Positions 6,028 through 21,148 of a stretch of DNA of 24,080 nucleotides are shown in pieces. Within the stretch, counting starts at the first letter, position 1; each line of letters starts with the position of its first letter. The stretch lies in the IMG/VR virus record IMGVR_UViG_3300035659_000095, positions 1 to 24,080 of that record; one strand, written 5' to 3'. The notes beneath the pieces are model-generated. The model was given only the letters and a program-made list of their open reading frames with translations, was not told the DNA's origin and ran no database searches. The position numbers and the translations under genes were made by a program. This DNA is from a virus.

Positions 6028-6528
6028 CTACCCTACCCAACTCCCCCGCCCCGGACCCGACAGACGCCGGAAGTGCCAGGCGAGTTGGATCACCCGGAAC
6101 GGCGTCAAGTCCGCAGCCACCATGAACCCGGCCGTGAAGGCCGGAGAGACCAACCTCGAGAACTCCGCCCGCGCATGAAACCTCCGCATGTGCGCGTAGC
6201 GAGCCGTGCCCCACGTCGGGGCATCCTGACCATAGAAGACGCCCGGCTCCGTCGCCTGAGCCGCTGCGGTGGTGTAGGTCGTCAGCTCGTACACCGTGCC
6301 CGTCTCCGTGATGGGAAACCGCTTCCAGACCTCCACCGAGATTGGGACTTCCCGCAGGGACTCGTAGATCATGTAGAGATGCTTCAGGTCCTTGAGTCCG
6401 TCCGGGTCCCCGAAATCCAACCCCTCCAGAACGAACCGAGCCGCGTTGTCGTACAGATCCGCAACCCCCGTGTCCGCCGATGGGTAGTCGGACAGGCAGT
6501 AGAGGATCGGAAGTACACGTACTGCCAT
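6028..6528 (-). CDS. Conserved-looking phage structural protein of unknown function (166 aa)
   Basis: The ATG at 6528 lies one base after the TGA of the propeller-like gene and has GAGG about 6 nt upstream. The in-frame extension to 6552 lacks a ribosome site. The N-terminus MAVRVLPILYCLSDYPSADTG is moderately hydrophobic. The middle (residues 30 to 75) looks helical and acidic, and the rest is mixed with aromatics and ends in a basic RRLSGPGRGSW tail. The family is not recognised. Tight coupling to the upstream tail gene suggests it is a tail or adaptor-associated component. Its stop is followed directly by the SEC-C gene's ribosome site. Confidence 0.7.
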   Translation of the reverse strand: MAVRVLPILYCLSDYPSADTGVADLYDNAARFVLEGLDFGDPDGLKDLKHLYMIYESLREVPISVEVWKRFPITETGTVYELTTYTTAAAQATEPGVFYGQDAPTWGTARYAHMRRFHARAEFSRLVSPAFTAGFMVAADLTPFRVIQLAWHFRRLSGPGRGSWVG

Positions 6529-6529
6529 C

Positions 6530-8128
6530 TCAAACCTCGAACCCCAACACAATCGCCTCCACCTGCCCGTAGGGGGCGCTCATGGAGAACGCCCAATCGT
6601 CGATCACGCCAACTAATCCGGTCTCGAGTTGAATCACCAGCGTCCGGTTCGGCTGGTAACCCGCCACGGGATCCGTTCCTCCATAGACATACTTCTGCCC
6701 CGTGTCGTCCCGGTAGGATAGGTAGTACCGATCATGCGACACCGCCCCACAGGCAAATCTCCAGTCGATAGACCCCAGTGAATCCCAACCAACACCGGAG
6801 AGAGGAGTTGATGGAATCGGTTGGGGGGAGGACCCGTTGAAGAAGTAGAGTCCGTCTCGGGATAGAAATACAACACCGTCCCTCCAGGGAAAGAGAGTCC
6901 GCGGGGCCACGCAGCCTACGTAGTCGTTATGAACCACGAAAACGTAGTTCTCCGGAGAGGATCCCGCCAAACGTAGGATCCCCCGGTCCAGGAACAGGTA
7001 GAGTTCCCCGTTGACGACTCGAGCCTGCTGGATCGTACGCACCCCAAGATCCGCCGATAGGGGGATCTCGAATGTCGCCGGCCACACATCCGGGTAGCCT
7101 GCCTTGGAGCAGGCTACCCGATTCGGCCGGCCGTACCCACCTATCCCCCACATGCGGTCCTGGTGTGCCACCAAGATTCGGAAGTGGCATGGCAACCCCG
7201 TGTCGTAGGGGATCGTGTACCCCAAATCGGTGTCGGGCACCGTGTCCAGGAAACTCGTCACCGGACGGAGAATATCCGCCACAAACTGGGGCGTAGCCGA
7301 AGCGTTCGGAGTCCGGTACAACCGGACCGCCGTGATATGCTCATCGAAGAAGGCCCACACAACACTGAAAATCGGGAACCCCTTCTCCACCTTCGCCAGG
7401 GAATCCACGGGCGTACCAAGAACCACCGGAGGACCCTCGCCAAACCGGGAAACCACGGAGGCTACGTACACCCCATGAGACGTGACGTTCGTCCCACCCC
7501 CGTACGAATACTTCCCGGAATACTTCGACAACCCCATCACTATGCACGCCCCGTCATTCAAGGTCGGGTGATAAACCCCCATCGCCCGGTAGTAGGCAGG
7601 CTTTATCGAGGGCTTGGCGAAGAGGGTGTGGAGTCCCTCGATTCGGATGGGCCAGTCGAGTCCGTTAGCAAAGTATAGGTTGTCTCCAAACTCAGCAAAG
7701 CTCCCGAGTAGGAAAGCAGCCCCAGTGTCGGCTCCGGGGTCAACACTCGGCCGGGCTGTCCAGGCAGGCCCCAACATAAGAAGTGCCTCAAACCGGAGCA
7801 GATACGGAGTTGTTCCGGGAGTGACACAATACTGATGCGACCGGAGAGTACCGAAAGATCCGCATAGGACAAGCGTCGATAACCCCCCGGACCCGCTCCA
7901 GTAGTGAATCCCGTGGTACTGGGTGGGTACGAGACTTCCGGTGTCGTCGAAGACTTGGGCAACCTGGGAGTAGCCGAAACTCTTGACCAGCTTGCCCTCA
8001 CGGTCAATCTGGAAACCGCGGCTCCGAAACGGATCGTAGTACGCACCAGGATCCGACACGCCCCCCGGAGAGCGGAAGCCAGGGAACTTATCCTGGACGT
8101 AGACTTCCGTTGGAGCCCCGTCTGCCAC
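6530..8128 (-). CDS. Putative tail nozzle/stabilisation protein, beta-propeller-like (532 aa)
   Basis: I prefer GTG at 8128, 4 nt after the upstream TGA with a GGGGGG site about 8 nt away; an upstream GTG at 8191 in the same frame (553 aa) lacks a clear site. The protein is almost entirely beta, with repeating blocks such as NGELYLFLDRGILRLAG, WRDGVVFLSRDGLYFFNGSSPQPI and HDRYYLSYRDDTGQKYVYGG. Blocks of this type are characteristic of the propeller-like tail nozzle or DNA-stabilisation proteins of short-tailed phages (the P22 gp10 class). It follows the adaptors and the second lectin-like gene, as expected for a tail component. The call is from pattern and position, not from a search. Confidence 0.65.
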   Translation of the reverse strand: MADGAPTEVYVQDKFPGFRSPGGVSDPGAYYDPFRSRGFQIDREGKLVKSFGYSQVAQVFDDTGSLVPTQYHGIHYWSGSGGLSTLVLCGSFGTLRSHQYCVTPGTTPYLLRFEALLMLGPAWTARPSVDPGADTGAAFLLGSFAEFGDNLYFANGLDWPIRIEGLHTLFAKPSIKPAYYRAMGVYHPTLNDGACIVMGLSKYSGKYSYGGGTNVTSHGVYVASVVSRFGEGPPVVLGTPVDSLAKVEKGFPIFSVVWAFFDEHITAVRLYRTPNASATPQFVADILRPVTSFLDTVPDTDLGYTIPYDTGLPCHFRILVAHQDRMWGIGGYGRPNRVACSKAGYPDVWPATFEIPLSADLGVRTIQQARVVNGELYLFLDRGILRLAGSSPENYVFVVHNDYVGCVAPRTLFPWRDGVVFLSRDGLYFFNGSSPQPIPSTPLSGVGWDSLGSIDWRFACGAVSHDRYYLSYRDDTGQKYVYGGTDPVAGYQPNRTLVIQLETGLVGVIDDWAFSMSAPYGQVEAIVLGFEV

Positions 8129-8132
8129 AACA

Positions 8133-9266
8133 TCATCCCCCCAAATCGTAGTATGCCTTGGCCCGACATACCGAACCACAGTACAAAACACTCAAGGTAG
8201 CTGAGGTCCACCTACTCCCCTCTCCAGAGACACCCGCCGTATGCTCCAACCCGAACTCCAACGTCCCCACGTTGGCATTGGTCCAGGGGATACCACCCCT
8301 GCCAAAGTCCGTCTCCTCCAACTGACACAAGTTGATAGTCCAGTTCGTCCCAAGAAGTTTCGCCAAGGTTGATTCCTTGTCCGTTCCGTCCGAACGGAGA
8401 AGAGTCTTCACGGAGTTACCTCCATAAGTTCTCTTCACGCAGAAGGACGCCATGACCGCAGCGATCGCGCCGACTCCCGTGGGAGCAGTTCGTACTTGGG
8501 TGGCCTTGGCCCCCTCGGTCGCAGCGTGCCGATAGGTTATGTCCCCGTCCGGAGGAACATCTTTCACGTAATTCCAATCGTGCGCCCAGGATGTGTGATA
8601 ACCATCCCCCACCGGAGAACCCGTACTGATAGAATACGGTTGGGTTAGGTAGTCCCCGGTGCAAAGAACCAGGTCATCATAGTAGAAACCAATCGTCTGG
8701 CTGCTGATGTTGATGTTCTTGCCCACGAAAATATTTCTGACTAGGATGCCCGGCCAACCCGCTCCGATGGTACCTGAGATCTTCGATACACCGTCCACCT
8801 TGAGTTCGTAGGATTCGTCGGACTTCTTCTGCTTGAATTCCAACAGGTACCACTGACCCGTCGTAATCTGATCCGGGGAAATCCCCAACAGATTCTCCGA
8901 CCCGTCCCGCAAGTGCAGGTAACCGTCGTGGTCCACACAGATCCGCATGCCCTCATAACCCGTATTTTCCACCGTCAGCAGATGTTCATACCCCGTACCA
9001 GGAAAAGCCCCCACCCAAAACCGAAAGCACCCGAAAACTTCCATGGCATTGAAGTTCCCTTCCAGGGTTCCATCTCCCCCCGGAGGAGCTACGACACCAT
9101 AGGCCGTAGCAGTTGTTGTAGGAAACACCCGGAACGAGTAGGCACCGGAATAGACGGGACTGGAAACCATTCCACAGTTCCCAGTCTTGTAGTCAAACCC
9201 CTCCACGTAGCCGTCAGCATGGCTACCACCGTTGAACCCCGTGAAGAATTTCACCACGCAGGGCAT
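8133..9266 (-). CDS. LamG/concanavalin-like virion protein, paralogue 2 (377 aa)
   Basis: The ATG at 9266 directly abuts the preceding TAA, and GGGGGG lies 4 nt upstream. Residues 1 to about 200 look like a LamG or concanavalin-type jelly roll: an N-terminal VVKFFTGFNGG opening, then GQWYLLEFKQKK and SYELKVDGV strands, and a closing IGFYYDDLVL strand. Residues 235 to 247 (VKDVPPDGDITYR) begin a second domain that matches the VDELPPDTADYIY region of the 402-residue product at 11070 to 12278. Members of this fold often bind sugars or form virion surfaces. The two copies flank the adaptor genes. Whether it is a fibre, decoration or tail protein is unknown. Confidence 0.72.
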   Translation of the reverse strand: MPCVVKFFTGFNGGSHADGYVEGFDYKTGNCGMVSSPVYSGAYSFRVFPTTTATAYGVVAPPGGDGTLEGNFNAMEVFGCFRFWVGAFPGTGYEHLLTVENTGYEGMRICVDHDGYLHLRDGSENLLGISPDQITTGQWYLLEFKQKKSDESYELKVDGVSKISGTIGAGWPGILVRNIFVGKNINISSQTIGFYYDDLVLCTGDYLTQPYSISTGSPVGDGYHTSWAHDWNYVKDVPPDGDITYRHAATEGAKATQVRTAPTGVGAIAAVMASFCVKRTYGGNSVKTLLRSDGTDKESTLAKLLGTNWTINLCQLEETDFGRGGIPWTNANVGTLEFGLEHTAGVSGEGSRWTSATLSVLYCGSVCRAKAYYDLGG

Positions 9267-9971
9267 TTAGCCCCCCAATGTCTGGGGAATCCGAGGCAAC
9301 CCCGGCTGGAAGCCGGCCAACGGACCCTCGATCTGCCGCATCTGGGGTACCGAGTCCGAGTGCAGGGCCAGGATCTTCACCATGTCCTGGAGTGCCGTTT
9401 CATACTCCATCTTGCAAACCATCGCCCGGTCCGGAGCGATCGACATCGACGCGAACCAGGCCGCACCCCACACCAAAACCCCCTCGAAGTGGTACGGGAG
9501 AGGAAGCCGATCGTCCGCCGTGGGGGGTGCCGCATAATAGTTCCCCGACCAGACCAACGTCAGGATCATGTCCCCCGAGGCCGGCGGAGAAATCCGGATC
9601 TTCTGCGTCGTCCCCGCCGGGACAACCGTCCAGATCAGGGGCTGCACCCCGGCCGCGATCGTAGAACCGATGTTCACCAACCGATCGAACTCCGCCGGAG
9701 GTCGGTAGACCGGGATGTAAAGATCCCCGGTCGTGTTCACGATCATCAACGCCACCGGAGTCCCGATCGACTCTCCCAACGTAGACGAGGACGCTCCGGA
9801 TACGATCGTGTCTACGCTGGTCGTGTAGAAAAGGGGATCCGGAACCCGCTGGCAAAGGTCGTTGAAGATGAACCCCAACCACTCGTACAGCCGGGCATCC
9901 AGATTGTCGATCCCCAGAATGTCCGCCACCTCCTGAGCCAAGGAGGACACCAAAGACATCGGATTTGCCAT
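9267..9971 (-). CDS. Head-tail adaptor-like protein 2 (234 aa)
   Basis: The start is ATG at 9971, 4 nt after the previous gene, with a GGGAGGG site upstream; 23 further codons upstream are open but overlap the previous gene. The N-terminal half is helical (LVSSLAQEVADILGI, LYEWLGFIFNDLCQRVPDPLFY). The middle is beta (TTQKIRISPPASGDMILTLVWSGNYY). The C-terminal half has a long helix beginning PLPYHFEGVLVWGAAWFASM, with MEYETALQDMVKIL. This helix-beta-helix layout is typical of short-tailed-phage adaptors that bind below the portal. It lies beside a second adaptor-like gene. It ends in LGG, whose codons supply the ribosome site of the next gene. Confidence 0.65.
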   Translation of the reverse strand: MANPMSLVSSLAQEVADILGIDNLDARLYEWLGFIFNDLCQRVPDPLFYTTSVDTIVSGASSSTLGESIGTPVALMIVNTTGDLYIPVYRPPAEFDRLVNIGSTIAAGVQPLIWTVVPAGTTQKIRISPPASGDMILTLVWSGNYYAAPPTADDRLPLPYHFEGVLVWGAAWFASMSIAPDRAMVCKMEYETALQDMVKILALHSDSVPQMRQIEGPLAGFQPGLPRIPQTLGG

Positions 9972-9975
9972 GGGA

Positions 9976-10677
9976 CTACATCCCTCCCCGAAGGACGATG
10001 GAGGGAACCATCCCACGCATGTGCGGGGTGGATGCCACAATCGCCTCCTCGCTGCGGATCATGTCGTTCAGGGACGCCGCGTACTCCTGCTGCCAGAGCA
10101 TGTACCCCTGGAGATTGCCCAGGAAAAGCATCGCCAGACGCATCACGCCAGACAAGACCAGCTTCCCGTACTTGTCCAGAATCCAGTGCGTGCTCGCGGC
10201 CCCGGTCATCTTGCCCGGGGCCGCAAGATACTGCACCAGAAAAGCGTTTGGCGCCGTGGTGTAGAACGGGTAGACCACCAGAAGCGGGATCATGTATTGA
10301 CCCGCTTCGGAACACCACCCCGGGATCGCGTAATGCGACGGGATCTCGCCAGAATAGGAAGCATTCCTCCCATGCAGGTTCCCGTAGAAGTCCTGGAGAG
10401 CATTCCGGACCAACACCCCCTGCGTGTCGTAGATGATGTGGTGGATGTTGATGAGATCCCGCGTGGCCCAGGGGGCCCACGTCGCCCACTGTCCGGTAAC
10501 CGTGGTAACCCTCGGGAATGAGCCCATCGTCTCCGTCTGGAGTTGCTTGTTCCAGGGAGCCTTGGTCGCCAATCCCATGAGAACTCGGTTGGTCCAGGTC
10601 ACCACCCGATCCGAGAGGTTGTGGTTCCCGGTCAGGACCTGTACCTGGTTCTGAATCTGTCCTACCGTCCACGCCAT
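9976..10677 (-). CDS. Head-tail adaptor-like protein 1 (233 aa)
   Basis: The ATG at 10677 has GGGGGAG about 8 nt upstream. The N-terminus MAWTVGQIQNQVQVLTG, then SDRVVTWTNRVLMGLATKAPW, fits the first helices of the SU10-type adaptor family. Residues 70 to 150 are beta rich, with a DLINIHHIIY strand. The C-terminal third is a long helix (VLSGVMRLAMLFLGNLQGYMLWQQEYAASLNDMI). It is followed 4 nt later by a protein with the same overall plan, suggesting two adaptor rings or a duplicated gene. Attribution rests on pattern and position. A perfect 10-bp inverted repeat (10196 to 10205 with 10215 to 10224) lies inside the gene. Confidence 0.65.
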   Translation of the reverse strand: MAWTVGQIQNQVQVLTGNHNLSDRVVTWTNRVLMGLATKAPWNKQLQTETMGSFPRVTTVTGQWATWAPWATRDLINIHHIIYDTQGVLVRNALQDFYGNLHGRNASYSGEIPSHYAIPGWCSEAGQYMIPLLVVYPFYTTAPNAFLVQYLAAPGKMTGAASTHWILDKYGKLVLSGVMRLAMLFLGNLQGYMLWQQEYAASLNDMIRSEEAIVASTPHMRGMVPSIVLRGGM

Positions 10678-10681
10678 GGTA

Positions 10682-11035
10682 CTATCTCCCCCGCGTGTGG
10701 ATCAGATACCGTCCCGTGATCGCCACGGTACCTGTAGCACTCAAGTTCCCGTAAAGAACCTCACCGTAACCACCCGATATCTCCGCCTGGATCAGGTTGC
10801 GGAGTGACATGCCGCCTTCCTTCAAGTAGTTCTTGTGGTAGAGCGCACCCGCCGCGCCGAAACGTATCGCTACCGTGATGAGATCCGCCCCCCCACTGCT
10901 GTACTCCAGGTAGGTGAGGGTGATCCTCCCGTCCGCCGCCGGAGTCACCAGAACCGTGTTCCCCGACGCTGTGAGGTCGATGCAGAACGGGATCCCCCCA
11001 CGAGATCGAAGCGGGGCCATCAGTTGATCCGTCAT
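10682..11035 (-). CDS. Small beta-sandwich virion protein (117 aa)
   Basis: The ATG at 11035 has GGGAGG 4 nt upstream. The sequence is one beta-rich domain: CIDLTASGNTVLVTPAADGR, then ITLTYLEYSSGGADLITVAI, a YHKNYLKEGGMSL loop, and a GYGEVLYGNLSATGTVAITGR closing region. The order of conserved small residues (GNTV, DGRI, GGMSL, GEVL, LSATGTV) matches a small sandwich domain often found as the C-terminal part of phage spikes or as a stand-alone decoration protein. A similar pattern occurs in the 212-residue product at 3075 to 3713. Here it lies between a lectin-like gene and the adaptors, suggesting a minor structural component. Confidence 0.65.
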   Translation of the reverse strand: MTDQLMAPLRSRGGIPFCIDLTASGNTVLVTPAADGRITLTYLEYSSGGADLITVAIRFGAAGALYHKNYLKEGGMSLRNLIQAEISGGYGEVLYGNLSATGTVAITGRYLIHTRGR

Positions 11036-11069
11036 CTATCCTCCCAGGGAAGCGTTCCGTCCGGAACGA

Positions 11070-12278
11070 CTACCCCCCCAACGTGTAACATCCCTGGTCG
11101 CTCACGGATACCGCAGCCGCCGGGATCTCCTTGAATAGAGCATGCAACGACATCCCACAGCAGTCAACCTGTTCTCCGTTCAGGTAGTCCCCAACGATCG
11201 TGATCCCAACCTCGAGGGCGTTCACCACAGCCGTCGACCAGGCAGCAGAAATCCCGGGGTTGACCCGCCAAAGAACCTGCCGGGGAGTCCAGATCCCCAC
11301 GCCACTGTCCGCAAACCAGTCGTCGGCGGATTGGTAGTCCACCGCAGCCGATCGGATGAAGTACCCGAGCAGATCCGACCCGGGCGTGAACGTCTCCCAC
11401 AGACTTTGCCAATACCCCTTCACCGCCAGGATGCTGTGTACCATCCCCACCGGCGAACCCGGGAGGTCCGCGCAGATGTAGGACTCCTTTCGCCCGGTAC
11501 GATTCTCGTAAATGTAGTCGGCCGTATCCGGGGGCAGTTCGTCCACGTCCGCGTACGTACCCACCCACTGATTGTAGTTTCCCGCCCCCGTGGGCATCAT
11601 CGGCGCGGCGTAGCACTCCCCGTTGAACCCCGCAGAGTCCAGAACCACATCGTCCAGAACGATCGAGAATGCCGAGGTCGCACGCTTCGTGTAGTTGCCC
11701 ATGAACAAGACCGCCCCGTTCACCAGACGAAACTTCCCATTGGTCCCGGAAAACTCCGTAACACCGTTGATCTTCAGAGTGTATGTCCCGTCCGCCACGG
11801 CGGGACCGGAGGAGTTGGTGTACGTCAACCCCACCCAGTAGTACGTCCCAGTCGCAAGCTCCGTAGTCCCCGACGCCAGCAATACCCCGTCCCGGTCGTA
11901 CAAATCCAGGTGGTAGTGTCCTCCGGTATGGCTGTTGATCCGCAGGTCCAGCTTTTGCAGTCCGCTGACGATCGCCGTCCGCATCGCCAGGATCTGCTCA
12001 CTTTCCCCTACGGTGGGAAGCGTGACCCCCTTCAACGCGAACTCGATGAATAGAGGCGAGTACACCAAATCCTTCCAAGACCCATCGGTTTCCAGGTCCA
12101 GGATCGTGATGTAGTTGGTGGTGAGCCCAGTGCCCGAGATCGTGATGTACCGGGTGCCGAAAGCACCCGCCCCGTGCGCGTTGGCCGGGGTGGACCCGAA
12201 CACCACGGACCCCACGGACGGAACGATCATCTCCGTCGAGTTCGCAATCTCAAATCCACAAAAGAAAACGGGGGTCAC
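11070..12278 (-). CDS. LamG/concanavalin-like virion protein, paralogue 1 (402 aa)
   Basis: GTG at 12278 overlaps the preceding TGA as GTGA. The N-terminus MTPVFFCGFEIANS is the characteristic opening of phage jelly-roll proteins (compare VVKFFTGFNGG in the 377-residue paralogue). Strands typical of a LamG fold follow up to about residue 215 (LDLRINSHTGG, YTLKINGVTEF, FSIVLDDVVLD). From residue 245 a second domain starts with VDELPPDTADYIYENRTG and includes VHSILAVKGYW; it is shared with the paralogue. The C-terminus has DCCGMSLHALF and ends LGG. The domain arrangement suggests a surface-exposed, possibly glycan-binding virion protein. It follows the glycosyltransferase cassette. Confidence 0.72.
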   Translation of the reverse strand: MTPVFFCGFEIANSTEMIVPSVGSVVFGSTPANAHGAGAFGTRYITISGTGLTTNYITILDLETDGSWKDLVYSPLFIEFALKGVTLPTVGESEQILAMRTAIVSGLQKLDLRINSHTGGHYHLDLYDRDGVLLASGTTELATGTYYWVGLTYTNSSGPAVADGTYTLKINGVTEFSGTNGKFRLVNGAVLFMGNYTKRATSAFSIVLDDVVLDSAGFNGECYAAPMMPTGAGNYNQWVGTYADVDELPPDTADYIYENRTGRKESYICADLPGSPVGMVHSILAVKGYWQSLWETFTPGSDLLGYFIRSAAVDYQSADDWFADSGVGIWTPRQVLWRVNPGISAAWSTAVVNALEVGITIVGDYLNGEQVDCCGMSLHALFKEIPAAAVSVSDQGCYTLGG

Positions 12279-12619
12279 TGATGCCGCCCATCCCTTCCGA
12301 AAGCTACTGCCGCTGCACGCTCTTCGGGGGTCACCCGATCCTTCCGGTGTGTCCGCATCCTGCGCTTGCCCGGAGTCGCCTTCAAGCGTTCACGCGGCAG
12401 GATGTCAAGACGCTTTCCCTCCGGGGTCACCTGGAGAACCCTTCGCCCTACCTGTGTTCCAAATACGGGAGCTGCGGGGCCTCCACCAGGCACGCCTCCC
12501 CGGCCCGGCAGTGGGAACCATCCGTTGGTAACCACGAGGGTCTCCTGCCCCAGCGAAGAGGGGGACGATTCGGGACGCATCCACCTGCTCTCCGACTTGG
12601 GCTCTGGCTTCTCGCTCAT
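12275..12619 (-). CDS. Small basic protein overlapping the glycosyltransferase gene (114 aa)
   Basis: The chosen ATG at 12619 has GGGAGG about 9 nt upstream. The first 215 nt lie inside the glycosyltransferase frame but in another reading frame. The end is coupled by GTGA to the 402-residue gene. The product starts MSEKPEPKSESRW, is Ser/Pro rich, has VVTNGWFPLPGRGGVPGGGP and GRRVLQVTPEGKRLDILPRERL, and ends with a strongly basic tail (KATPGKRRMRTHRKDRV). No known family is recognised. GC-rich third codon positions in the overlap suggest real coding. The alternative is a sequencing error or a later start at about 12580 (residue 14, Met), which would shorten but not remove the overlap. Confidence 0.6.
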   Translation of the reverse strand: MSEKPEPKSESRWMRPESSPSSLGQETLVVTNGWFPLPGRGGVPGGGPAAPVFGTQVGRRVLQVTPEGKRLDILPRERLKATPGKRRMRTHRKDRVTPEERAAAVAFGRDGRHQ

Positions 12620-13271
12620 GTTCAATCGCCTCCCTGACCTTGAAGTAGTGCGCCTCATCCACGATCATCGGGGTCTCGAGAATGTGTCCGATCTTGACCC
12701 CCGTGTGGACGTAGACGGGATACCCCGCGGCCAGCATGCGGGTGCAGACCGCGGCGTCCTCACCGAAGTCGTTCCCCAGGTTGAAGAGATTCGGACCCAT
12801 CGCCCGGAAGATCTCCACGTCGATAATCACGAATCCGAACCCGATCACGTCCACCTTCATCACTTCGTCCGGCGGGTAGTAAAAAATCGGCACCGTGCCC
12901 TCATCCGTGAGAGAGAAGATGCACGGAGCACAGGACAAACTCCGCGTGAAGTAGAGTGCCGAGAGGATCTTCGGCTGGTCCGGGTGTGTCTGCATCGCGT
13001 TCCATAACTTCGTGAAGTCCTTGCCGGAGAACTGGTGATCGTCGTCCAGGGAGAGAATGTGCGTCACCCCCAGTTTGAGACCCGCCTCCGCAATCCCGTT
13101 GCGGGCCGTCTGACGGTACGTCCGCACGTCCCGCTGAGTGTAAACATGCTCGATTTCGGGGTGCTTCCGACCGATCGTATACATCAGGTTCCAGCCGGAA
13201 TCCTGAGAGAACTCGGCCGGGGGCTTGCCGTACGTCGGGTCGGCTACCAACAGGGAGTAGGGGGCACTCAC
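12405..13271 (-). CDS. GT-A fold glycosyltransferase (family 2-like), 288 aa
   Basis: The GTG at 13271 overlaps the TGA of the zinc-ribbon gene (GTGA) with GGAGG about 6 nt upstream. An open extension to 13691 lies over that gene and is rejected. The order of motifs fits a GT-A glycosyltransferase: a QTARNGIAEAGLKLG segment (54 to 68), a DDD triad at 76 to 78 (HILSLDDDHQF) as the nucleotide-sugar/metal site, an acidic GED at 170 to 172, and H196 in VKIGHI. It should transfer a sugar from a nucleotide donor to an unknown acceptor, possibly a virion protein or DNA. Residues beyond about 216 look unlike the rest and overlap the next gene. Donor and acceptor cannot be predicted. Confidence 0.8.
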   Translation of the reverse strand: MSAPYSLLVADPTYGKPPAEFSQDSGWNLMYTIGRKHPEIEHVYTQRDVRTYRQTARNGIAEAGLKLGVTHILSLDDDHQFSGKDFTKLWNAMQTHPDQPKILSALYFTRSLSCAPCIFSLTDEGTVPIFYYPPDEVMKVDVIGFGFVIIDVEIFRAMGPNLFNLGNDFGEDAAVCTRMLAAGYPVYVHTGVKIGHILETPMIVDEAHYFKVREAIEHEREARAQVGEQVDASRIVPLFAGAGDPRGYQRMVPTAGPGRRAWWRPRSSRIWNTGRAKGSPGDPGGKAS

Positions 13272-13624
13272 GATCTCACCTCCAACCCCTTGCCCCGGTC
13301 GACCCCGACCCGGATCGGCTTCGTCCAACCCCACCCCAATGGGCCCCAGAAGTGCCAGTGATGAAACACGTACGCCAACCAGAGCGGGAACCACTCCCAA
13401 AAACCCCGCAACTTCGTGCCGATCATGTACCGACAACCACAGTGGGGGCACCCCCCATACTTCTTCGACTCCCACTCCGTCACCAACTTGCCGCAACCGT
13501 CGTACCTGACCGAACAGCGGTAGATCCAACAACGGATCTTCTCCGAAGACGGTTCCACGTACGGCTTCGGCATCAGGTGTCGAAGGTCCAACTTCGCGTT
13601 CTTGCTCAACCCCTGAATCCTCAC
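13268..13624 (-). CDS. Zinc-ribbon protein with Trp-rich hydrophobic segment (118 aa)
   Basis: The start is GTG at 13624 with AAGGAGGGG just upstream; an open extension to 13687 has no ribosome site. Cysteines at 32, 37 and 44 and a CPHCGC knuckle at 59 to 64 suggest a zinc ribbon, although the pairs are not a textbook CxxC/CxxC. Residues 75 to 100 are extraordinarily aromatic (GFWEWFPLWLAYVFHHWHFW) and could sit on or in a membrane or a hydrophobic pocket. It overlaps the glycosyltransferase start by 4 nt and lies 23 nt below a strong hairpin. The two genes are likely co-translated and functionally linked. No specific function is known. Confidence 0.75.
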   Translation of the reverse strand: MRIQGLSKNAKLDLRHLMPKPYVEPSSEKIRCWIYRCSVRYDGCGKLVTEWESKKYGGCPHCGCRYMIGTKLRGFWEWFPLWLAYVFHHWHFWGPLGWGWTKPIRVGVDRGKGLEVRS

Positions 13625-13647
13625 AGGCCCCTCCTTGGATTGTACCC

Positions 13648-13676
13648 CCGGGGCCGGCTCTAGGTGCCGGCCCCGG
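13648..13676. terminator. Perfect intergenic hairpin after the candidate decoration gene
   Basis: An 11-bp perfect inverted repeat (CCGGGGCCGGC with GCCGGCCCCGG) and a 7-nt loop fill the 89-nt gap between the candidate decoration gene and the zinc-ribbon gene. No U-rich run follows on the leftward transcript, so it is not a standard intrinsic terminator. It may protect or partially attenuate the abundant capsid mRNA before the accessory cassette. Confidence 0.5.
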
Positions 13677-13713
13677 AGACGTTGCATTCACCCGCGCATC
13701 TGCTCTGCCGGGC

Positions 13714-14319
13714 CTAGTCCAGACAGTGGATGAACGCCTTCATCGTGAACGCGCTCGTGTATGTTGCCGTGGCGGCAACGTTCCCCAGAGGCATCGCATA
13801 CCCACCGGGGTAGAGAGCCCCGAGACTGTGAGCCGCTGTGGACGCGATAGCCATCGGGATCGCCATCAGACCGAAGTACCCGTAGTTCGCCACCATGCCG
13901 GTGCTCTGCGTACCAAACACGTAATGACACGGCCGAAGGATCAGGTTCGTGAACTTCGATGCCGTCCAGGACGTGTAGGATGCGAACAACGTCACGTTGT
14001 CAATGAACGGGTCGACCGACGCGCTTCCCGAGCAGGCCAGAGCGTCGTGCTGACCGAACTTCTGCACCTCACCATACTCTCCCGGAATGATGTTGCGGCG
14101 TCCCACAACACCACACAGGAGTCCGGGGTTGATGCAGTTGGTTGCAGCCGTGGGAGAGAACGTGACTCCGTAGCCGGATCCGCTCCCACCACCCGCCACG
14201 ACTGTGTAGTTCCAGTAGACACCATGCCCTACCGTCATCGTGACCGTGGACTCGTTCTTCACCGAGACGAAGATCTTGTTGTTGTCGTCCACGCCCAGGT
14301 TGGGAATCGACCAAGCCAT
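13714..14319 (-). CDS. Candidate capsid decoration/head protein (201 aa)
   Basis: The ATG at 14319 has GGGGGGAG 4 nt upstream, and the gene directly follows the major capsid gene (12 nt). The protein is beta rich with many small and polar residues: MAWSIPNLGVDDNNKIFVSVKNEST, a GGGSGSGYGVTFSP linker at 39 to 52, a block YGEVQKFGQHDAL, and a hydrophobic C-terminal half (NYGYFGLMAIPMAIAS). No enzyme motif or known family is recognised. A gene in this position in related phages often codes for a decoration or minor head protein. The leftward mRNA ends this head module with a strong hairpin just downstream. Confidence 0.6.
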   Translation of the reverse strand: MAWSIPNLGVDDNNKIFVSVKNESTVTMTVGHGVYWNYTVVAGGGSGSGYGVTFSPTAATNCINPGLLCGVVGRRNIIPGEYGEVQKFGQHDALACSGSASVDPFIDNVTLFASYTSWTASKFTNLILRPCHYVFGTQSTGMVANYGYFGLMAIPMAIASTAAHSLGALYPGGYAMPLGNVAATATYTSAFTMKAFIHCLD

Positions 14320-14331
14320 TGTTCTCCCCCC

Positions 14332-15615
14332 CTATGTGTGGTACGCGGCACCGTCTCCGAAGGAGATGACGCCGTTCTGCGACCGGTTGTTGCAGCACAG
14401 GTTCCCCATGAAGAGAATCTGTGCGGTCTTCGCATCCTGGTTCGTCGGAGTCCGGAACGGGGTGATGGCGAAGTCGGCGTCCCGATGAACCACCCACTCG
14501 AACGAGTCCGAGTTGAGGAAGTACATCGGAGACATCTTCGTCGTCGGACCCGTAGGCGTACCCCGGAGAACCGTGGTGATTCCCTTGTCCATGACCAGCG
14601 GAACCGTGCGGTACCGCAGGTTCTGGAAACCCGCGTCCCCGAGCTTCGTGTCGTAGTACCGCTCGTTCGGCGTCAGCAACCCCTCGTACTGCCCGTACAC
14701 GTCACGGGCGGAGAGAAGGAAGTCGACCTGCTCGAGACGGTTGAACATCTCCCGCATGGCAGTCAACATCCCCGCGGGAGAAGTCGCGTTGAGGTCCTCG
14801 GCCGCGGTCAGCTCCGACTCCGGGAGTGCGGACCCGATCGTGCCACCCACGGAAGTTTCCTGGAGAAGATCCACGCCGGGATTGGCGTAGTTCATCCACC
14901 AGGCGTTGACCCAGGATCCGGTGTTAGCCACGATGTCGTCCCACAGGTTGTAGGCGGACTCACCCGTTCCCAGAGTCACGGAAACCGTGACCCCACCTAC
15001 CGTATGAGACTGGATCGTAGTCGCGTCGTTGTTCATCAACCCCCAGCCAGAACGGACGAAGTTGTCCAGCGAGTTGAACCACTTGTAGGCCAAGTCGCCC
15101 ATGTTCGCCGGAGAGTCGACCGCCGACCCACCCTGAGAGTCGACTGCGTTCGCGCTCTCCCGCCCGACGAAGGTGAGGCCGAGAGATCCATGAAGACCAT
15201 GCAGAGCCGCGGCCAGGGTCTTGCGCATGGAGTTCTCGGCCCGCTTCATCTCCGAATCAAGCAGGGAGAATCGCTGAGCCACGCCAGCATTCTTGCGGAG
15301 GTCCTCCCCCGCAAGCGTGATCGACGTGGCAACGTTGGCCCACTTGTAGATCGCCGCCGTGACTCCCTCGGTCGGAGTCGTGTTGAGCGTGTCGAAGCGG
15401 CCGTACGGCATGGTCGTCGTGTTGTTCCCGTACTCGAGGGTCACCACGATCTCCTGACCGCCGTCTTCGGTGCGCTTCCGCCCCTTCTCCTCCAACCAGT
15501 AGAGCAACGGCATCTTGCGTACCGTCTGTCGATAGACCCGAGGACGGACCTTCCGGGCCGCGCTGGTAAACAGCGTGTCCCAGGTATCCGTGACTTGGGT
15601 CGCCTGATAAGCCAT
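14332..15615 (-). CDS. Major capsid protein, HK97-like fold (427 aa)
   Basis: The ATG at 15615 has GGGGAG about 9 nt upstream, directly after the scaffold stop. The N-terminal arm MAYQATQVTDTWDTLFTSAARK is followed by KMPLLYWLEEKGRKRTEDGGQEIVV and LAGEDLRKNAG, which are typical of phage major capsid proteins of the HK97 fold. Charged helices follow (SEMKRAENSMRKTLAAALHG), then a long insertion (about residues 150 to 270), and the C-terminus has LFMGNLCCNNRSQNGVISFG. Position between scaffold and decoration genes fits. It should assemble into hexamers and pentamers of the head. Length is somewhat long for the core fold, which fits the insertion. Confidence 0.85.
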   Translation of the reverse strand: MAYQATQVTDTWDTLFTSAARKVRPRVYRQTVRKMPLLYWLEEKGRKRTEDGGQEIVVTLEYGNNTTTMPYGRFDTLNTTPTEGVTAAIYKWANVATSITLAGEDLRKNAGVAQRFSLLDSEMKRAENSMRKTLAAALHGLHGSLGLTFVGRESANAVDSQGGSAVDSPANMGDLAYKWFNSLDNFVRSGWGLMNNDATTIQSHTVGGVTVSVTLGTGESAYNLWDDIVANTGSWVNAWWMNYANPGVDLLQETSVGGTIGSALPESELTAAEDLNATSPAGMLTAMREMFNRLEQVDFLLSARDVYGQYEGLLTPNERYYDTKLGDAGFQNLRYRTVPLVMDKGITTVLRGTPTGPTTKMSPMYFLNSDSFEWVVHRDADFAITPFRTPTNQDAKTAQILFMGNLCCNNRSQNGVISFGDGAAYHT

Positions 15616-15621
15616 GGTTGG

Positions 15622-16473
15622 CTACTCCCCAATATCCCTCTTCCCAAGCACATCGTCAGGACGAAAGCCCGATTCCTCCAGAGCAGCCCGCATCGCGTCT
15701 TTCATCTCATACATCGGGCGTTCGGGTGTCTTAGGGACCGAGGACGCGGTTCCCGCACCACTCACACCTGCCCGATTTCGAGCATCAGACGCCTCACGGA
15801 GCCGCCTCGCCTGACGCACTTTTTCCACGATGGCGAAGTTGTAGGCATCCTCCCTGGACCGGAGTGGTTTTCCTAGGGCTGCGTCCTTCTGCCATGCGCG
15901 CCTCATCCCATCGTGGTGCTTTTGCCAGTCAGGGAACTCCTGGACGAACACCGCAAGAGCGAGTTGGTCCACGTTCTGCGCTTGCAGATTCCTGAGCTGC
16001 GCGGCCAGAGGGGCCACATGCCTTTGGACCACCTGTGAAACTACCGGATCCAGATCCGAATCCCCATCCATCCCACCCCCGGTGCCGGGTTCGGTGCCCT
16101 CCGGGAACGTCTCCATCAGGAAACGCTGCGTCCGTGGGTCCCGTAAAAACGGTTCCAACTGACGCAACCCGTCGAGTTGTGCCGCTCCAGCCTGTAGCCG
16201 CGCCTGAAGAGCCTCAACCTCCTTCCGCTGAGCGGAAAGAGTCTGAGTCTTCTTCGTCCACGCAGCCTGCATCCGAGTGTGGGCCTGCCGTTCGGACGGT
16301 GTGGCGTTCTCGGGAAGAGGTGCAAACTCCTCCCCTTCGGGGGGTGCGCCTTGACCCTGGTCCGAATCCGTTTCCTCGGTCCCAGTGCCATCGGGAATCA
16401 GAAGATCGGAATCCGCATCTGGGGCGGGGGCTCCTTCTCCTGCCGACAACGGGTTGGGGTCCTGGTCTACCAT
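15622..16473 (-). CDS. Scaffolding protein (283 aa)
   Basis: The ATG at 16473 has GAAGGAG 6 nt upstream. The first 60 residues are acidic and disordered (DADSDLLIPDGTGTEETDSD). A long coiled coil covers about residues 62 to 110 (KKTQTLSAQRKEVEALQARL). A Gly/Asp linker and a second helical block follow (VVQRHVAPLAAQLRNLQAQN). The C-terminal third is basic and amphipathic (KVRQARRLREASDARNRAG, ending ALEESGFRPDDVLGKRDIGE), which suits capsid binding. Immediate placement upstream of the major capsid gene is the standard scaffold position. No protease motif is visible, so self-cleavage is not indicated. Confidence 0.75.
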   Translation of the reverse strand: MVDQDPNPLSAGEGAPAPDADSDLLIPDGTGTEETDSDQGQGAPPEGEEFAPLPENATPSERQAHTRMQAAWTKKTQTLSAQRKEVEALQARLQAGAAQLDGLRQLEPFLRDPRTQRFLMETFPEGTEPGTGGGMDGDSDLDPVVSQVVQRHVAPLAAQLRNLQAQNVDQLALAVFVQEFPDWQKHHDGMRRAWQKDAALGKPLRSREDAYNFAIVEKVRQARRLREASDARNRAGVSGAGTASSVPKTPERPMYEMKDAMRAALEESGFRPDDVLGKRDIGE

Positions 16474-16488
16474 GCAAAACTCCTTCTG

Positions 16489-16752
16489 TTAGCCGGGCGC
16501 GGGAAGCACCCGGTTTCCCCCATCAATCAAACCATGCTCCTCGAGAACCTGATCCTTCACCGACAGCGCCGACGTGGCCTGGTGCTTGACACTCACCACC
16601 TTGAATGTGGCGGACCAACCTTGTGTTCCATCGTAGCCTCCGTGGTCCACACGGGTCAGTTCCGCCAGGACTTCCAACACATGGTCGGAGCCAATCTCCT
16701 CATTGTGGACTTCCTCCGCCACCGGGCCCTTGATCGTGAACTCGTCATCCAT
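16489..16752 (-). CDS. Small acidic head-region protein (87 aa)
   Basis: The chosen ATG at 16752 has GGGAGG 6 nt upstream, overlapping the end of the 83-codon gene by 8 nt; the ATG two codons earlier would abut the site, and the long open extension lies in another gene. The product MDDEFTIKGPVAEEVHNEEIG is acidic, then has a beta segment (ATFKVVSVKHQATSALSV), and ends VLPAPG. No family is recognised. It lies between the portal-downstream small gene and scaffold, so it may be a minor head or assembly factor. Confidence 0.6.
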   Translation of the reverse strand: MDDEFTIKGPVAEEVHNEEIGSDHVLEVLAELTRVDHGGYDGTQGWSATFKVVSVKHQATSALSVKDQVLEEHGLIDGGNRVLPAPG

Positions 16753-16996
16753 CGTCATCCTCCCGCACCAAGGAAGCCGCAGCCCCGCGATCGGGGACTT
16801 CCACCAACCCCATCTGGCGCAGTACGTCCCGCTTGTGCCGGCGGCTGTGAATCTCACAACCCAGATTCGGGGAGTAGTATGAGTTTCTCCTCGGGGGCAA
16901 CGACACGTCGTCAAAGGTCACGTGAGGAGTTCGATCGGAGATCTTCACGACCTTATCCACCTTCGGATCGTACTTGTAGACTCCCGTTTTGCTCAC
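16745..16996 (-). CDS. Small basic head-region protein (83 aa)
   Basis: GTG at 16996 overlaps the portal stop (GTGA) with GGAGGGG just upstream. The N-terminus MSKTGVYKYDPKVDKVVKISDR and the segment RNSYYSPNLGCEIHSRRHKRDVLRQMGLVEV give a short Lys/Arg-rich protein with an acidic tail (LVREDDDG). This pattern (an opening YKYDP, then YYSPNLG followed by basic helices and GLVEV) is common in small proteins coded between portal and scaffold in related short-tailed phages. Its biochemical role is unknown. A DNA or portal interaction is conceivable but not shown. Confidence 0.7.
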   Translation of the reverse strand: MSKTGVYKYDPKVDKVVKISDRTPHVTFDDVSLPPRRNSYYSPNLGCEIHSRRHKRDVLRQMGLVEVPDRGAAASLVREDDDG

Positions 16997-18894
16997 GACC
17001 CCTCCATGGGAAACTCGTTCCGAGGGTTCGGTCCTGCGGGACCCCTCCGAACCCCCACGTTCTGCGTGGCGGATAGAAGATCCCCCATGTTCGTGCCCCC
17101 GCTGCGGAGTCGGATGTCCTGACTCGCCGGACCTCCCGGAGTGCCCGGAACCCCGGCCGGGCCTGGTAGCCCGGCCGGCTGGCGCGAGGTCAGGAACCGC
17201 TCCGGGTTCGGGACGTTGAGCAACGTCGCAGCGAACCGTGCGGCCTCGTACAGGTCGATGACGGGCATCCCCGTCATGGGATCAACCTTGCTGCCGAAGA
17301 CGTTCACCCAATCCATGAATTGCTTGGTGCGGATCTCACGGGAAACGTACGCCATCGACCCCACACGGATCGTGATCTTGACCCGCGTACGCTTGAGGAA
17401 GTCCCCCTGGAAAACGTCCGCAAGCGCCGGGGCCTGCTCCATCCCGACCACGTGGGCAAAGTCCTGGACCGTCCCGTACTGCTGGATCATCGACCAGAGA
17501 CGGCGTACCCCACGGGTCACGAACGCAGCCACGAGCTGCACGTCGTCGGACTCACGCACGCGAGCCGTCGACTCCACGATCGAGGCTTCGGTCGCGGTGG
17601 CCCCCTTCATCTGCCCGCCCCGACGTTGCTCCGTGGATCCCGAGAGCTTCGTCAAACCGTCCTCGATGATCCCCCGCAAGGCGTAACTGTCCGAGGGGAT
17701 CGGGAGATCCGGGATCGGATAGACCGCCCCGTCCGGGGGACCGTTGAAATGCACGATCCCACAATCCGTGGGAGACTCGAGCATCGCCTCGTCTTCGTCG
17801 GCCGCGAATGCTCCCTGCTCCACTCCAAACTTCCGGGAACTGGTGCGGAGGATGTGCCCGTACTGCGCGGAGTTGAGTACGTTCAAGCAGACTGCGGGGT
17901 TGAACCAGGTGGATACGTCCGAGACCCCGTACACCTCGTCCGGGTCCTCGTTGAAGACCAGGATCTCGAATGGGAACCCACGGGCGTCGTAGGGGTTCAC
18001 ATCCTCCCGCAGGAACTTCGTGTGCTCACCCTTCAGCACCCCACCTTCGTCCATGACCAAGAGCGAGTTGGTTTCCCGGTCCCAGATTTCGTAGATCTTC
18101 ACCAGGTTGCCAAAACGGTTGGACACCCGGTCCTCGGAACTGACTACCGTGCCGTCCCCGGTCTTGGCCGCGAACACCGGGTAGGCATCCTTGAACCCCA
18201 CCGTCCCCTCAATCCCCGCCGCGATCGACTTCGTATACGTCGAGTCCTTCCGGACCTCCTCCTCCGGGCGCAGGATGATGTGCGCCACCCACCGGGCCCG
18301 CTCGAAACGGTTGCCGGCCAACGGGTCGATCAGGAACATGCGGGGGGAAACACGGAAGGCAAACGGCAACGCCTCCTGGATCCGGTAGTCCGGGTAGTAG
18401 GGCTTCTCCCCCTCCTCTTCGTCCAACCAGAGATCCGGGTCGAACATACTCTGGGCCATCACCGAGGCGAGTTCGTTCTCTACCGACCCCTCACGCGCCA
18501 AACCTCGCAAGTACCCAAACTTCATCACCCCCAAACCACAAACCAGGGCATCCAGGATCGTGCTGCGACACTCGCGCTGGTAGTCGATCTCGTCCAGGGT
18601 GTGATTGAGAATCATCTCCGCTGCGGTGGCGTAGGGGAGAAGTGTCGATCCGATCGGGTCCGCGAGAACGTCGGGGTTCTGGAAGTAGAGACCCGGGATC
18701 ACCGTACGAATGAGTTGGAAGATGTAGTTAATCCAGAGAACCTGACCCGCCGGCTTGTCACTCTCTGGAATCTCCTGACGGTAGTGGCTAAGATACTTGC
18801 GCCAGGTGTCGTACCGCTGCTTCAGCAAACGGTCACAGAGACCAATCTGCTCAGACCAAGACTGGTACCGCTCAGACTCACTCTTCCTTGGCAT
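16993..18894 (-). CDS. Portal protein (633 aa)
   Basis: I choose ATG at 18894, which shares its A with the TerL stop (TGATG); a TTG one codon upstream is possible. The N-terminal helices (DRLLKQRYDTWRKYLSHYRQEIPESD), the VIPGLYFQNPDVLADP motif and RARWVAHIILRPEEEV are typical of short-tailed-phage portals, as is LNVLNSAQYGHILRTSSRKFGV in the middle. Portals form the dodecameric ring through which DNA enters and leaves. The last 70 residues are unusual: a Pro/Gly triplet run (AGLPGPAGVPGTPGGPA) precedes a basic, disordered tail. An 83-codon gene overlaps its end. Confidence 0.85.
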   Translation of the reverse strand: MPRKSESERYQSWSEQIGLCDRLLKQRYDTWRKYLSHYRQEIPESDKPAGQVLWINYIFQLIRTVIPGLYFQNPDVLADPIGSTLLPYATAAEMILNHTLDEIDYQRECRSTILDALVCGLGVMKFGYLRGLAREGSVENELASVMAQSMFDPDLWLDEEEGEKPYYPDYRIQEALPFAFRVSPRMFLIDPLAGNRFERARWVAHIILRPEEEVRKDSTYTKSIAAGIEGTVGFKDAYPVFAAKTGDGTVVSSEDRVSNRFGNLVKIYEIWDRETNSLLVMDEGGVLKGEHTKFLREDVNPYDARGFPFEILVFNEDPDEVYGVSDVSTWFNPAVCLNVLNSAQYGHILRTSSRKFGVEQGAFAADEDEAMLESPTDCGIVHFNGPPDGAVYPIPDLPIPSDSYALRGIIEDGLTKLSGSTEQRRGGQMKGATATEASIVESTARVRESDDVQLVAAFVTRGVRRLWSMIQQYGTVQDFAHVVGMEQAPALADVFQGDFLKRTRVKITIRVGSMAYVSREIRTKQFMDWVNVFGSKVDPMTGMPVIDLYEAARFAATLLNVPNPERFLTSRQPAGLPGPAGVPGTPGGPASQDIRLRSGGTNMGDLLSATQNVGVRRGPAGPNPRNEFPMEGS

Positions 18895-20585
18895 CAACGT
18901 GTTCCAATCCTTGGAACCCCTTTACCCGTACCCCGGAACAGGTGCGGGAACAACGCCTCGAAGGACTCGGCCTTGGGCTTCTTCTTCGGGGCCGCAGGAC
19001 CCGGCACGACCAGCTTCGGCAACCACGCCAACGCATCTATACAGTCCTTCGTCTCCCCCAAGGGGAAGTGCAACATCTCCGTCGCCAGGAAGTCCTGCCC
19101 CGGTACGAGGGCATAGTAGAGATCCTCCGGCGGGAGAGTCAAGTCCGTTCCGTCCCTCACTCGGAGGTAGAGGCCCCGCGTTCGGGCAAACTCCGCGAAG
19201 TCCTCTATTCGCATGTCCTTAGACTTGTGGGTCTCTCCTTCCAAAGGATGAATGTGGAACCACTCCCCCCGCTCCACACACTGGGCCTTGAACGAGTGGT
19301 AGATCCCTTTCTGGAACTGGAAGGACTCGATGCCGATCTTGATCGGCTTCCACCGGTGACGGATCTGGAAGAGCGTTTCAATCAATCCCTCGTTGCCTAC
19401 GATCCGATCCCGGATCACCTCCATCACGTAAATCTCGTTGTCGGTCGAAATCCCCACGGTGTCGAATGCTGAATATGCAGAACTCGCCGTCTCCCCACGA
19501 CTGGGATCGAGGATCGTGATGTAGACGAAGTTGGTGGGCATCGGGAAGATCTCACCTTCCGCCGTGCGGCGGTACCGCTCGTTGTAGAATCCGAGGTTGT
19601 GGAGTTTGTAGACCTTCGACTCATCGGGGAGAGGGTCGTTCATGTAGAGACATGAGTAGAGCTCCGCCCCGAGAGTCTTCTTCATCTTCGCCAGGAAGGC
19701 TTTCGTGTGGCGGGTCGGGAAGTAGAGTTTACCCGCGGAGTTGACCGCCGGTTTGCAGTATTCCCGCCACTCCCGAGGCTCACGAGCACGCCGGCGCTGG
19801 CGTTCCTCGGCCTCGATCCGCCCATAAGGGTCTGAGAAGTGCCAACGGGTGCCGAAAAGCATCCGAGGCCCGCGCTGGCCCGGGTCGGACGACCATGGGG
19901 TCGTCCGCCCAACCCGCGGGCGCGTGAAGGGGTCGATCAACGGGGCCACCACGTTCAGGGACTGGTTGATCTGAGCCATGATCTCGGGGTTTCGACGGGT
20001 CATTTCGTTCACGGGATCGTCGATGATTACCATGTCGTAGTGCTGAGAGGTCTCCGAGGTCTTGATCGAGCTCGCAATCCACGAACACTCCACCCGGAAG
20101 AGCGTCCGACCTGTGAGCTTGATCCGATCCGTCCTCCAGGTGTCCGTCGTGCCCTCTCCGTGAGGTACTAGGTCCCCGTAGAGAAGCCGAAACGTCCGGT
20201 TCGACTCGAGATGCTGCTTTCCAACCGCTAACCACCCCTTCGTGTAGTCCATTTCCCAGCTCAGAGACATGATTCGGAGGTTCTTGTCCTTCGTGAAGAG
20301 CCAGAGAGGCAACCCTACCGACCCGATCGTGCTCTTGAAACACCCTCGGGGAGCCAGGATCAGCATGTCCTCCCACAAGTACCGCTGAATGAAGTCGCAG
20401 ATCTCCCAGTGAGGCTGAATCGCCATGTCTGAGTAGCCGAGAACGTACTTCGTGAATGCATAAAGGGAAGCGTCAGAGACCCGCTTCAACTTCTCGGCCA
20501 GGAGAATGAATAGACGCTGCTTCTGCTCCCGTGGAGTCCAGTCCCCCTGGAGTAGAGACTGGGTGAGTACCTCTTCCTGCCTCAC
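18894..20585 (-). CDS. terL: Terminase large subunit (563 aa)
   Basis: GTG at 20585 overlaps the TerS stop (GTGA). The ATPase domain has a Walker A-like APRGCFKST at 78 to 86, Walker B YDMVIIDD at 183 to 190, and the FGTRWHFSD motif at about 244 to 252. The RNase H-like nuclease has D360 (ILDPS), E420 (GIESF) and D517 (DCIDALAW). The N-terminal YVLGYSDMAIQPHWEICDFI is common in such terminases. It pumps DNA into the prohead and cuts concatemers, using ATP. Length is near the usual 500 to 600 residues. It precedes the portal gene. The C-terminus is basic and Lys/Pro rich. Confidence 0.92.
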   Translation of the reverse strand: MRQEEVLTQSLLQGDWTPREQKQRLFILLAEKLKRVSDASLYAFTKYVLGYSDMAIQPHWEICDFIQRYLWEDMLILAPRGCFKSTIGSVGLPLWLFTKDKNLRIMSLSWEMDYTKGWLAVGKQHLESNRTFRLLYGDLVPHGEGTTDTWRTDRIKLTGRTLFRVECSWIASSIKTSETSQHYDMVIIDDPVNEMTRRNPEIMAQINQSLNVVAPLIDPFTRPRVGRTTPWSSDPGQRGPRMLFGTRWHFSDPYGRIEAEERQRRRAREPREWREYCKPAVNSAGKLYFPTRHTKAFLAKMKKTLGAELYSCLYMNDPLPDESKVYKLHNLGFYNERYRRTAEGEIFPMPTNFVYITILDPSRGETASSAYSAFDTVGISTDNEIYVMEVIRDRIVGNEGLIETLFQIRHRWKPIKIGIESFQFQKGIYHSFKAQCVERGEWFHIHPLEGETHKSKDMRIEDFAEFARTRGLYLRVRDGTDLTLPPEDLYYALVPGQDFLATEMLHFPLGETKDCIDALAWLPKLVVPGPAAPKKKPKAESFEALFPHLFRGTGKGVPRIGTR

Positions 20586-21148
20586 TTGATACTCACAAAC
20601 TCGGCATCCTCGATTGGAATCACCTTCCCACCCGCTACCTGGAGATCACTGGAGTAGAGATGGGCAAAAGCTTGCCCAATCTCCCGGTCCAAGTCGTCGT
20701 CTGAGAGATCCCGGACCATCTGAGACTGGAAGGTGTCTCCCTGTCCCCCCAGGTTGAACTGGTTGATCGTCGGACCCTTCGATGCTACGACACCCGTGAT
20801 CTCCAGGAACTGACGAACTGCCTCTCGGTCCCCCTTATGGGCACGGAGAACCAATTTTCGTAGTACAGGAACGATGCTGGACTGGAGAGCTGATCTGTAC
20901 CTCTTGTAGGCTGCTTCATGGAAAGAGGGATCCAGTCTCCAGGTCACCAACTGGGAAATGGGAACCCCAAGCTCCTTGGCAATCTCCTTCTCCTCCTGAG
21001 TGTTCATCGGGTCAGACCAGAGTTCAAGGTAGGTCTGACGAATCTTCCTCATGTCCTCCAAACTGAACTCAGGAGTAACTGGTGTGACTGGAGATGAGGC
21101 TATGGCTATGATCTTCTTCCCTCTTGGTCTACGAGACCCGGTTTTCAT
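20582..21148 (-). CDS. terS: Terminase small subunit-like DNA-binding protein (188 aa)
   Basis: The ATG at 21148 lacks a visible Shine-Dalgarno site; an in-frame stop lies upstream, so it is the first possible start. Residues about 52 to 73 (EEKEIAKELGVPISQLVTWRLD) form a helix-turn-helix like those of small terminase subunits. Helical segments follow (RSALQSSIVPVLRKLVLRAH), then REAVRQFLEITGV, consistent with oligomerisation. The C-terminus has an acidic tail (DLDREIGQAFAHLY). It would recognise the packaging site and hand DNA to TerL, to which it is coupled by a GTGA overlap. The 16 N-terminal residues are basic. Confidence 0.78.
   Translation of the reverse strand: MKTGSRRPRGKKIIAIASSPVTPVTPEFSLEDMRKIRQTYLELWSDPMNTQEEKEIAKELGVPISQLVTWRLDPSFHEAAYKRYRSALQSSIVPVLRKLVLRAHKGDREAVRQFLEITGVVASKGPTINQFNLGGQGDTFQSQMVRDLSDDDLDREIGQAFAHLYSSDLQVAGGKVIPIEDAEFVSIK

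Follow-up and report, generated by a model that had tools for sequence, protein, structure and literature searches.

What a zinc-ribbon protein (ZR) and a glycosyltransferase (GT) do inside a virion operon, and which molecule would receive the sugar, are the questions raised by the uncultured soil virus record IMGVR_UViG_3300035659_000095, whose 24,080 bases were analyzed over their whole length and are referred to here as the window. The virion operon lies on the minus strand and runs from TerS, TerL (phrog_38), and an SU10/P22-like portal gene through an unknown-function gene and a scaffold-like gene to a podovirus-type major capsid protein (MCP), which is followed by a candidate decoration gene (dec), ZR, GT, a small gene, and then LamG-like and SU10-adaptor genes. 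The initial annotation had singled out the ZR-GT pair, and its coordinates, cysteines, tryptophan segment, GTGA overlap, DDD motif, and hairpin are all present on the minus strand. The term LamG-like that it gave to two downstream genes is weakly borne out, as the Laminin_G_2 match of a relative, at 1.7e-4, falls slightly short of the Pfam cut-off. The features are as follows:

14332-15615, minus strand: MCP, podovirus type, anchor gene of the survey (NCBIfam NF033394, 6e-57; phrog_9953, 4e-42)
13714-14319, minus strand: dec, putative decoration protein of the capsid, proposed to accept the glycan and named from its place after MCP and from Foldseek of its model
13646-13678, minus strand: strong RNA hairpin in the dec-ZR gap, with 11-bp perfect arms in a 13-bp stem
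13630-13636, minus strand: ZR ribosome-binding site AAGGAGG, 5 nt before the GTG start
13268-13624, minus strand: ZR, zinc-ribbon protein of 118 aa with a GTG start and family-conserved C37, C44, C59, and C62
13316-13405, minus strand: C-terminal part of ZR (residues 74-103), rich in tryptophan with 7 Trp per 30 aa
13268-13271, minus strand: GTGA, in which the ZR stop overlaps the GT start and couples the two genes, with overlap or near-abutment in most relatives
12405-13271, minus strand: GT, GT-A glycosyltransferase of 288 aa with DDD at 76-78, GED at 170-172, and H196 (phrog_34859, 4.3e-7)
12275-12619, minus strand: g12275, small basic gene of unknown function, with a 5' portion (12405-12619) that shares its bases with the GT tail in another frame

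Searches for close relatives with ZR, GT, or MCP returned two contigs only, and distant profiles were needed beyond these. Against contig 3300032883_000214 (91-95% identical), dN/dS was 0.09 for ZR and 0.11 for GT, which identifies both as real, constrained genes under purifying selection. The C-terminal tail of GT shares 215 nt with g12275, and both frames are open in the 91% relative; the GC3 of the GT frame drops from 0.82 to 0.59 inside the overlap. Because a g12275 homolog directly follows ZR in L095, a GT-less relative, the arrangement suggests that GT was inserted between ZR and the small gene or was lost from there.

Elsewhere in the window, TerS, TerL, and portal match their counterparts in relative L007 at 100% protein identity (dS 0.002-0.015; 16993-21148), and the genes from MCP downward (6028-16914) reach a dS of 0.6 or more against the same relative, which places an abrupt mosaic border close to the 3' end of the portal gene. 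Two adjacent minus-strand genes (9267-9971 and 9976-10677) both belong to the SU10 adaptor family (3.4e-8 and 2.4e-8) and form a tandem adaptor pair. A DUF932 protein (2.2e-34) is encoded on the opposite strand at 22907-23908, outside the virion operon.

The active site of GT is intact: D76, D78, D172, H196, R57, and R110 are invariant in an alignment of 26 GT sequences, and the protein has the DxD metal motif, a conserved catalytic acidic residue, and a metal-site histidine. GT is probably a working enzyme with a role on the virion side. Its matches to phage families are weak, as the phrog_34859 value indicates. An AlphaFold model (pLDDT 81.5) is confident to about residue 230, with the last 46 residues (243-288) disordered, and has a GT-A fold, with 291 Foldseek matches below 0.001. 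The best match was viral A197 (2c0n; E 8.8e-9), followed by COLGALT1, B4GALNT1, LH3, GalNAc-T2, and Mnn9, and both Mnn9 and A197 were also recovered by profile search of PDB sequences; a remote structural match was seen to Gp87 of Mycobacterium phage Ardmore (E 5e-6). Several of these structural neighbors have protein acceptors, others being sugar-nucleotide enzymes or a lipid glycosyltransferase, and they are only suggestive of a protein acceptor for GT.

The distribution of the two genes was surveyed from MCP. A search anchored on GT had given 80 viral loci, several with the order MCP-dec-ZR-GT; MCP was chosen as anchor to avoid the bias of starting from GT, and its 80 best matches were grouped at 80% MCP identity, with at least 2.5 kb downstream, into 38 clusters of uncultured podoviruses. 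Every locus is an uncultured contig, and open reading frames were called by six-frame scans with greedy selection. The adjacency that the initial annotation had put forward for checking is conserved, and homologs of the two proteins do co-occur: dec-ZR-GT is found in 20 of the 38 clusters, ZR without GT in six, and neither in 12, while GT without ZR was seen in none. ZR is not exclusive to GT, however; it tracks dec, since the six GT-less clusters keep dec and ZR, and 25 of 26 dec-positive clusters carry ZR. Six GT-less records, of which three span 41-48 kb, lack such a GT over their entire length. Because only one ZR change and three GT changes are seen on the MCP tree, the Fisher test of co-occurrence (7e-6) was set aside; the presence/absence pattern is almost a single clade marker, phylogenetically shallow, and weak evidence for a module. 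Alignments covering a broad range of ZR sequences varied too much to be used for scanning contigs, and ZR-anchored scans yielded 14 loci, all of them with MCP and dec upstream and GT downstream. In the GT-less loci L149, L157, L166, L167, and L171, ZR is followed by a gene of 133-149 aa and unknown function, with a possible SH3-like C-terminus.

The model of the candidate decoration protein (pLDDT 71.9) gave top Foldseek matches that were mostly decoration proteins (Pam3, T1, TW1, lambda gpD, and P21 SHP), though weak ones, with a best E of 0.0095. As for decoration proteins of the lambda gpD and P21 SHP type, the gene follows MCP, directly so in the window and in 19 of the 20 clusters with both ZR and GT; unlike them, the dec protein is longer and its gene is sometimes tandem in relatives. 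Three copies lie between MCP and ZR in L098 (8252-10028) and two in L014 (3704-4622). The dec family has no shared PHROG, and a dec HMM found no match in the reference phages tested. In comparison with the 91-95%-identical contig, dec is the most divergent of the genes compared, and it is 61% identical in amino acids to its counterpart in a relative with a 93%-identical MCP (dS about 1). The window MCP is itself about 100 aa longer than the family model, owing to an insertion at about residues 190-280 that is shared only with the closest relatives and is possibly a surface domain.

The strongest evidence for a module, stronger than presence or absence, is block exchange. The loci L145 and L146 have MCPs that are 99% identical in amino acids, yet dec is only 37%, ZR 34%, and GT 30% identical. 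Their DNA is 94% identical up to the first dec codons and returns to 85% identity at the next core gene. The block replaced in between consists of dec, ZR, and GT, along with one small gene and a methyltransferase that stands alone in L145 and is fused in L146. Similar swaps at lower MCP identity separate L128 from L105 and L118, and L099 from its MCP neighbors, and module type among GT-bearing phages switches five times on the MCP tree. Over 22 loci, partial distance correlations given MCP were 0.73 for dec-GT, 0.75 for dec-ZR, and 0.76 for ZR-GT (permutation p 0.0005), and each pair still correlates when the third gene is also given (0.38-0.47; permutation p 0.0005). On this basis dec, ZR, and GT would belong together as a capsid-surface module that an uncultured lineage of podoviruses exchanges as a unit, probably glycosylating dec, a reading that is favored here with moderate confidence.

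The choice of dec as the likely acceptor follows from its being the capsid gene that changes with GT while MCP stays constant, although its travel with GT could be explained by physical linkage alone. If GT acted instead on another virion protein, either MCP or a tail or LamG-like protein, dec would merely hitch-hike in an adjoining recombination hot spot, and its position at the edge of the swapped block fits such an account, as does the statement in PMC12363180, citing Freeman 2023, that mycobacteriophage capsid and tail-tube proteins are themselves glycosylated. Against this stand the L145/L146 pair, where GT has been replaced over a nearly unchanged MCP and aligned downstream genes that are 85-93% identical, and the dec-GT correlation, which persists given MCP and ZR (0.38, p 0.0005); action on another virion protein is considered unlikely.

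Four cysteines (C37, C44, C59, and C62) are invariant in 28 ZR members and are predicted to supply the four ligands of two cysteine knuckles, the first of which is widened to C-x6-C in the window protein; C64 is also present, as is the CPHCGC motif. From residue 74 onward, 7 tryptophans and 12 aromatic residues fall within about 30 residues, while the other main window proteins tested have at most 4 Trp per 30. The initial annotation had proposed this segment as an anchor to a membrane or partner. The window tail is indeed strongly interfacial on the Wimley-White scale, but membrane anchoring does not hold as a family property, the tails of relatives being variable, often amphipathic, shorter, and in some cases acidic. 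Tail type tracks GT type, with acidic tails beside GT-methyltransferase fusions and aromatic tails beside single-domain GTs, L035 being an exception. The locus defines a zinc-ribbon family that shares no PHROG or Pfam entry and lacks a clear match in 50,697 deposited phage records, where tblastn gave nothing convincing; a ZR HMM likewise found no match in the reference phages tested. ZR-GT fusions were looked for and none was found.

Most likely ZR is a small accessory factor linked to dec and retained where GT is missing. It might, on the other hand, have nothing to do with glycosylation and serve as a core capsid or assembly factor, or as a nucleic-acid-binding regulator of the operon, beside an inserted GT cassette, a proposal that concerns ZR only and is compatible with GT acting on dec. 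Its association with dec and persistence in the six GT-less clusters agree with such independence, as do the small gene directly after ZR in L095, the kilobases that separate GT from ZR in L099 and L185, and the resemblance, by weak matches, of the ribbon profile to the ribbons of RNA polymerase Rpo12 (0.0022) and NOB1 (0.0036). It is opposed by the ZR-GT partial correlation of 0.47 given MCP and dec, by the pairing of acidic tails with the fusion type outside L035, and by the conserved start/stop coupling, and in balance it is judged only slightly less probable than its contrary. A more specific role, in which ZR is a dedicated targeting subunit whose ribbon docks on dec while its tail, variable and either aromatic or acidic, recruits the GT that fits it, is unlikely. 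If it were so, acceptor, adaptor, and enzyme would be passed on together as a single antigen-like cassette open to swapping, and phage heads would have a serotype system built of modules.

The slot occupied by GT in the window is filled in relatives by GT4 and GT2 enzymes, GT-methyltransferase fusions, and SAM methyltransferases. In L099 and L185 it also holds DegT/DnrJ/EryC1 aminotransferases (~1e-97 and 1e-100) and CmcI-type methyltransferases, together with a sulfotransferase in L185 and a GNAT-type acetyltransferase in L099; because these predicted activities are amino-sugar and sugar-modifying ones, the slot in these two loci is read as a glycan island, of which the window, with one GT, has the minimal form. 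A small acetyltransferase gene, maybe for another virion-modifying enzyme, also follows the stabilization/head-closure gene in the cultured or complete MCP relatives L008 (14760-15044), L009 (14110-14523), and L173 (10636-11043).

Two acceptors other than a virion protein were also weighed. GT might modify a host surface glycan or the envelope late in infection, causing receptor masking or a serotype-like conversion, and phage glycosyltransferases are described as converting serotypes in PMC12619734; GT also has an NCBIfam rhamnosyltransferase match, albeit weak at 1.1e-4 and well under the cut-off. It is nevertheless improbable that GT acts there, given that it has no evident membrane span, lies in the late virion operon, and co-switches with dec, and that no prophage relatives turned up in the genome collection except for one short binned contig. 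The MCP scans of bacterial genomes for a host yielded one 7-kb contig from a Gottesmanbacteria bin, maybe a mis-binned phage. The initial annotation had named a virion protein or the phage genome as the target, and only the former is sustained, through the co-inheritance and co-exchange of GT with dec. Glycosylation of modified bases in phage DNA would find a parallel in GT-based DNA hypermodification (Pyle 2024, as cited in PMC12619734) and in a weak match of GT to phrog_842, an HMC alpha-glucosyltransferase family (0.014). However, GT switches together with a capsid gene, and no thymidylate-synthase or dCMP-hydroxymethylase relative was found in 19 records, many of 35-48 kb and some fragments, in a search whose control was positive in nine genomes; DNA is accordingly a very improbable acceptor. 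A Tet/JBP hydroxylase was likewise found in none of the 19 records, although the control genomes were silent as well.

The hairpin between dec and ZR is invariant, loop included, in the 91%-identical relative, where flanking bases differ, and its fold has a z-score of only about -2 against shuffles. Hairpins of unrelated sequence occur 3' of dec in many relatives; they are stronger than those after GT (p 6e-5) or MCP (p 0.01), p values that are rough because the loci are related, and they are weak in a five-member GT-less clade. An intrinsic terminator was rejected as there is no U-tract, and a step-down of expression or protection of an mRNA 3' end is proposed instead.

A working model can be drawn from these observations. 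The hairpin after dec would probably keep the structural-gene transcript high and the output of the enzyme genes low, though this is speculative. Late in infection, the soluble, metal-dependent GT would take a host nucleotide sugar and attach it to a serine, threonine, or asparagine of dec, either ahead of or during the binding of dec to the capsid, so that the head would acquire a coat of sugar. Where GT is present, ZR may, again speculatively, bring it to dec or to the assembling head by means of the variable aromatic tail. In relatives, the glycosyltransferases, sugar or O-methyltransferases, sulfotransferase, acetyltransferase, and aminotransferases of the slot would elaborate the glycan.

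To our knowledge, glycosylated capsids have been demonstrated for only a handful of phages, chiefly mycobacteriophages, and we know of no ZR in their virion-glycosylation systems. Methyltransferases are often found with such virion-glycosylating phage glycosyltransferases. In mycobacteriophages Che8, Corndog, and Myrna, phage glycosyltransferases glycosylate capsid and tail-tube proteins (Freeman 2023, as summarized in PMC11256854 and PMC12363180), much as is proposed here for the window. The window GT comes immediately behind dec and ZR and is exchanged en bloc with dec, whereas in Maravista (F1) the glycosyltransferases lie near the genome 3' end. The likeness to the mycobacteriophage enzymes is proposed at the level of function. 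The A197 protein of STIV (PDB 2c0n), an archaeal viral GT-A enzyme from a virus with a glycosylated capsid protein according to PMC10551542, is the best structural and second-best profile match of GT and likewise a small GT-A domain, but it is about 16% identical, comes from an unrelated virus, and has, like GT, a putative acceptor. The protein O-glycosyltransferases COLGALT1/LH3 and GalNAc-T2, as well as Mnn9, share the GT-A fold, the metal site, and nucleotide-sugar donors with GT, but are remote eukaryotic enzymes whose donor and linkage cannot be carried over. The cultured Microcystis phage Mel-JY34 (phrog_34859/phrog_1574) has a homologous GT next to a capsid gene, after MCP, in a stretch without ZR or a dec family gene.

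The locus points to widespread, modular capsid glycosylation in a lineage of uncultured environmental podoviruses, in which the naturally occurring swap between L145 and L146 singles out a candidate acceptor. A coat of sugar on the head could influence adsorption, recognition by antibodies, grazing, and the stability of the particle.
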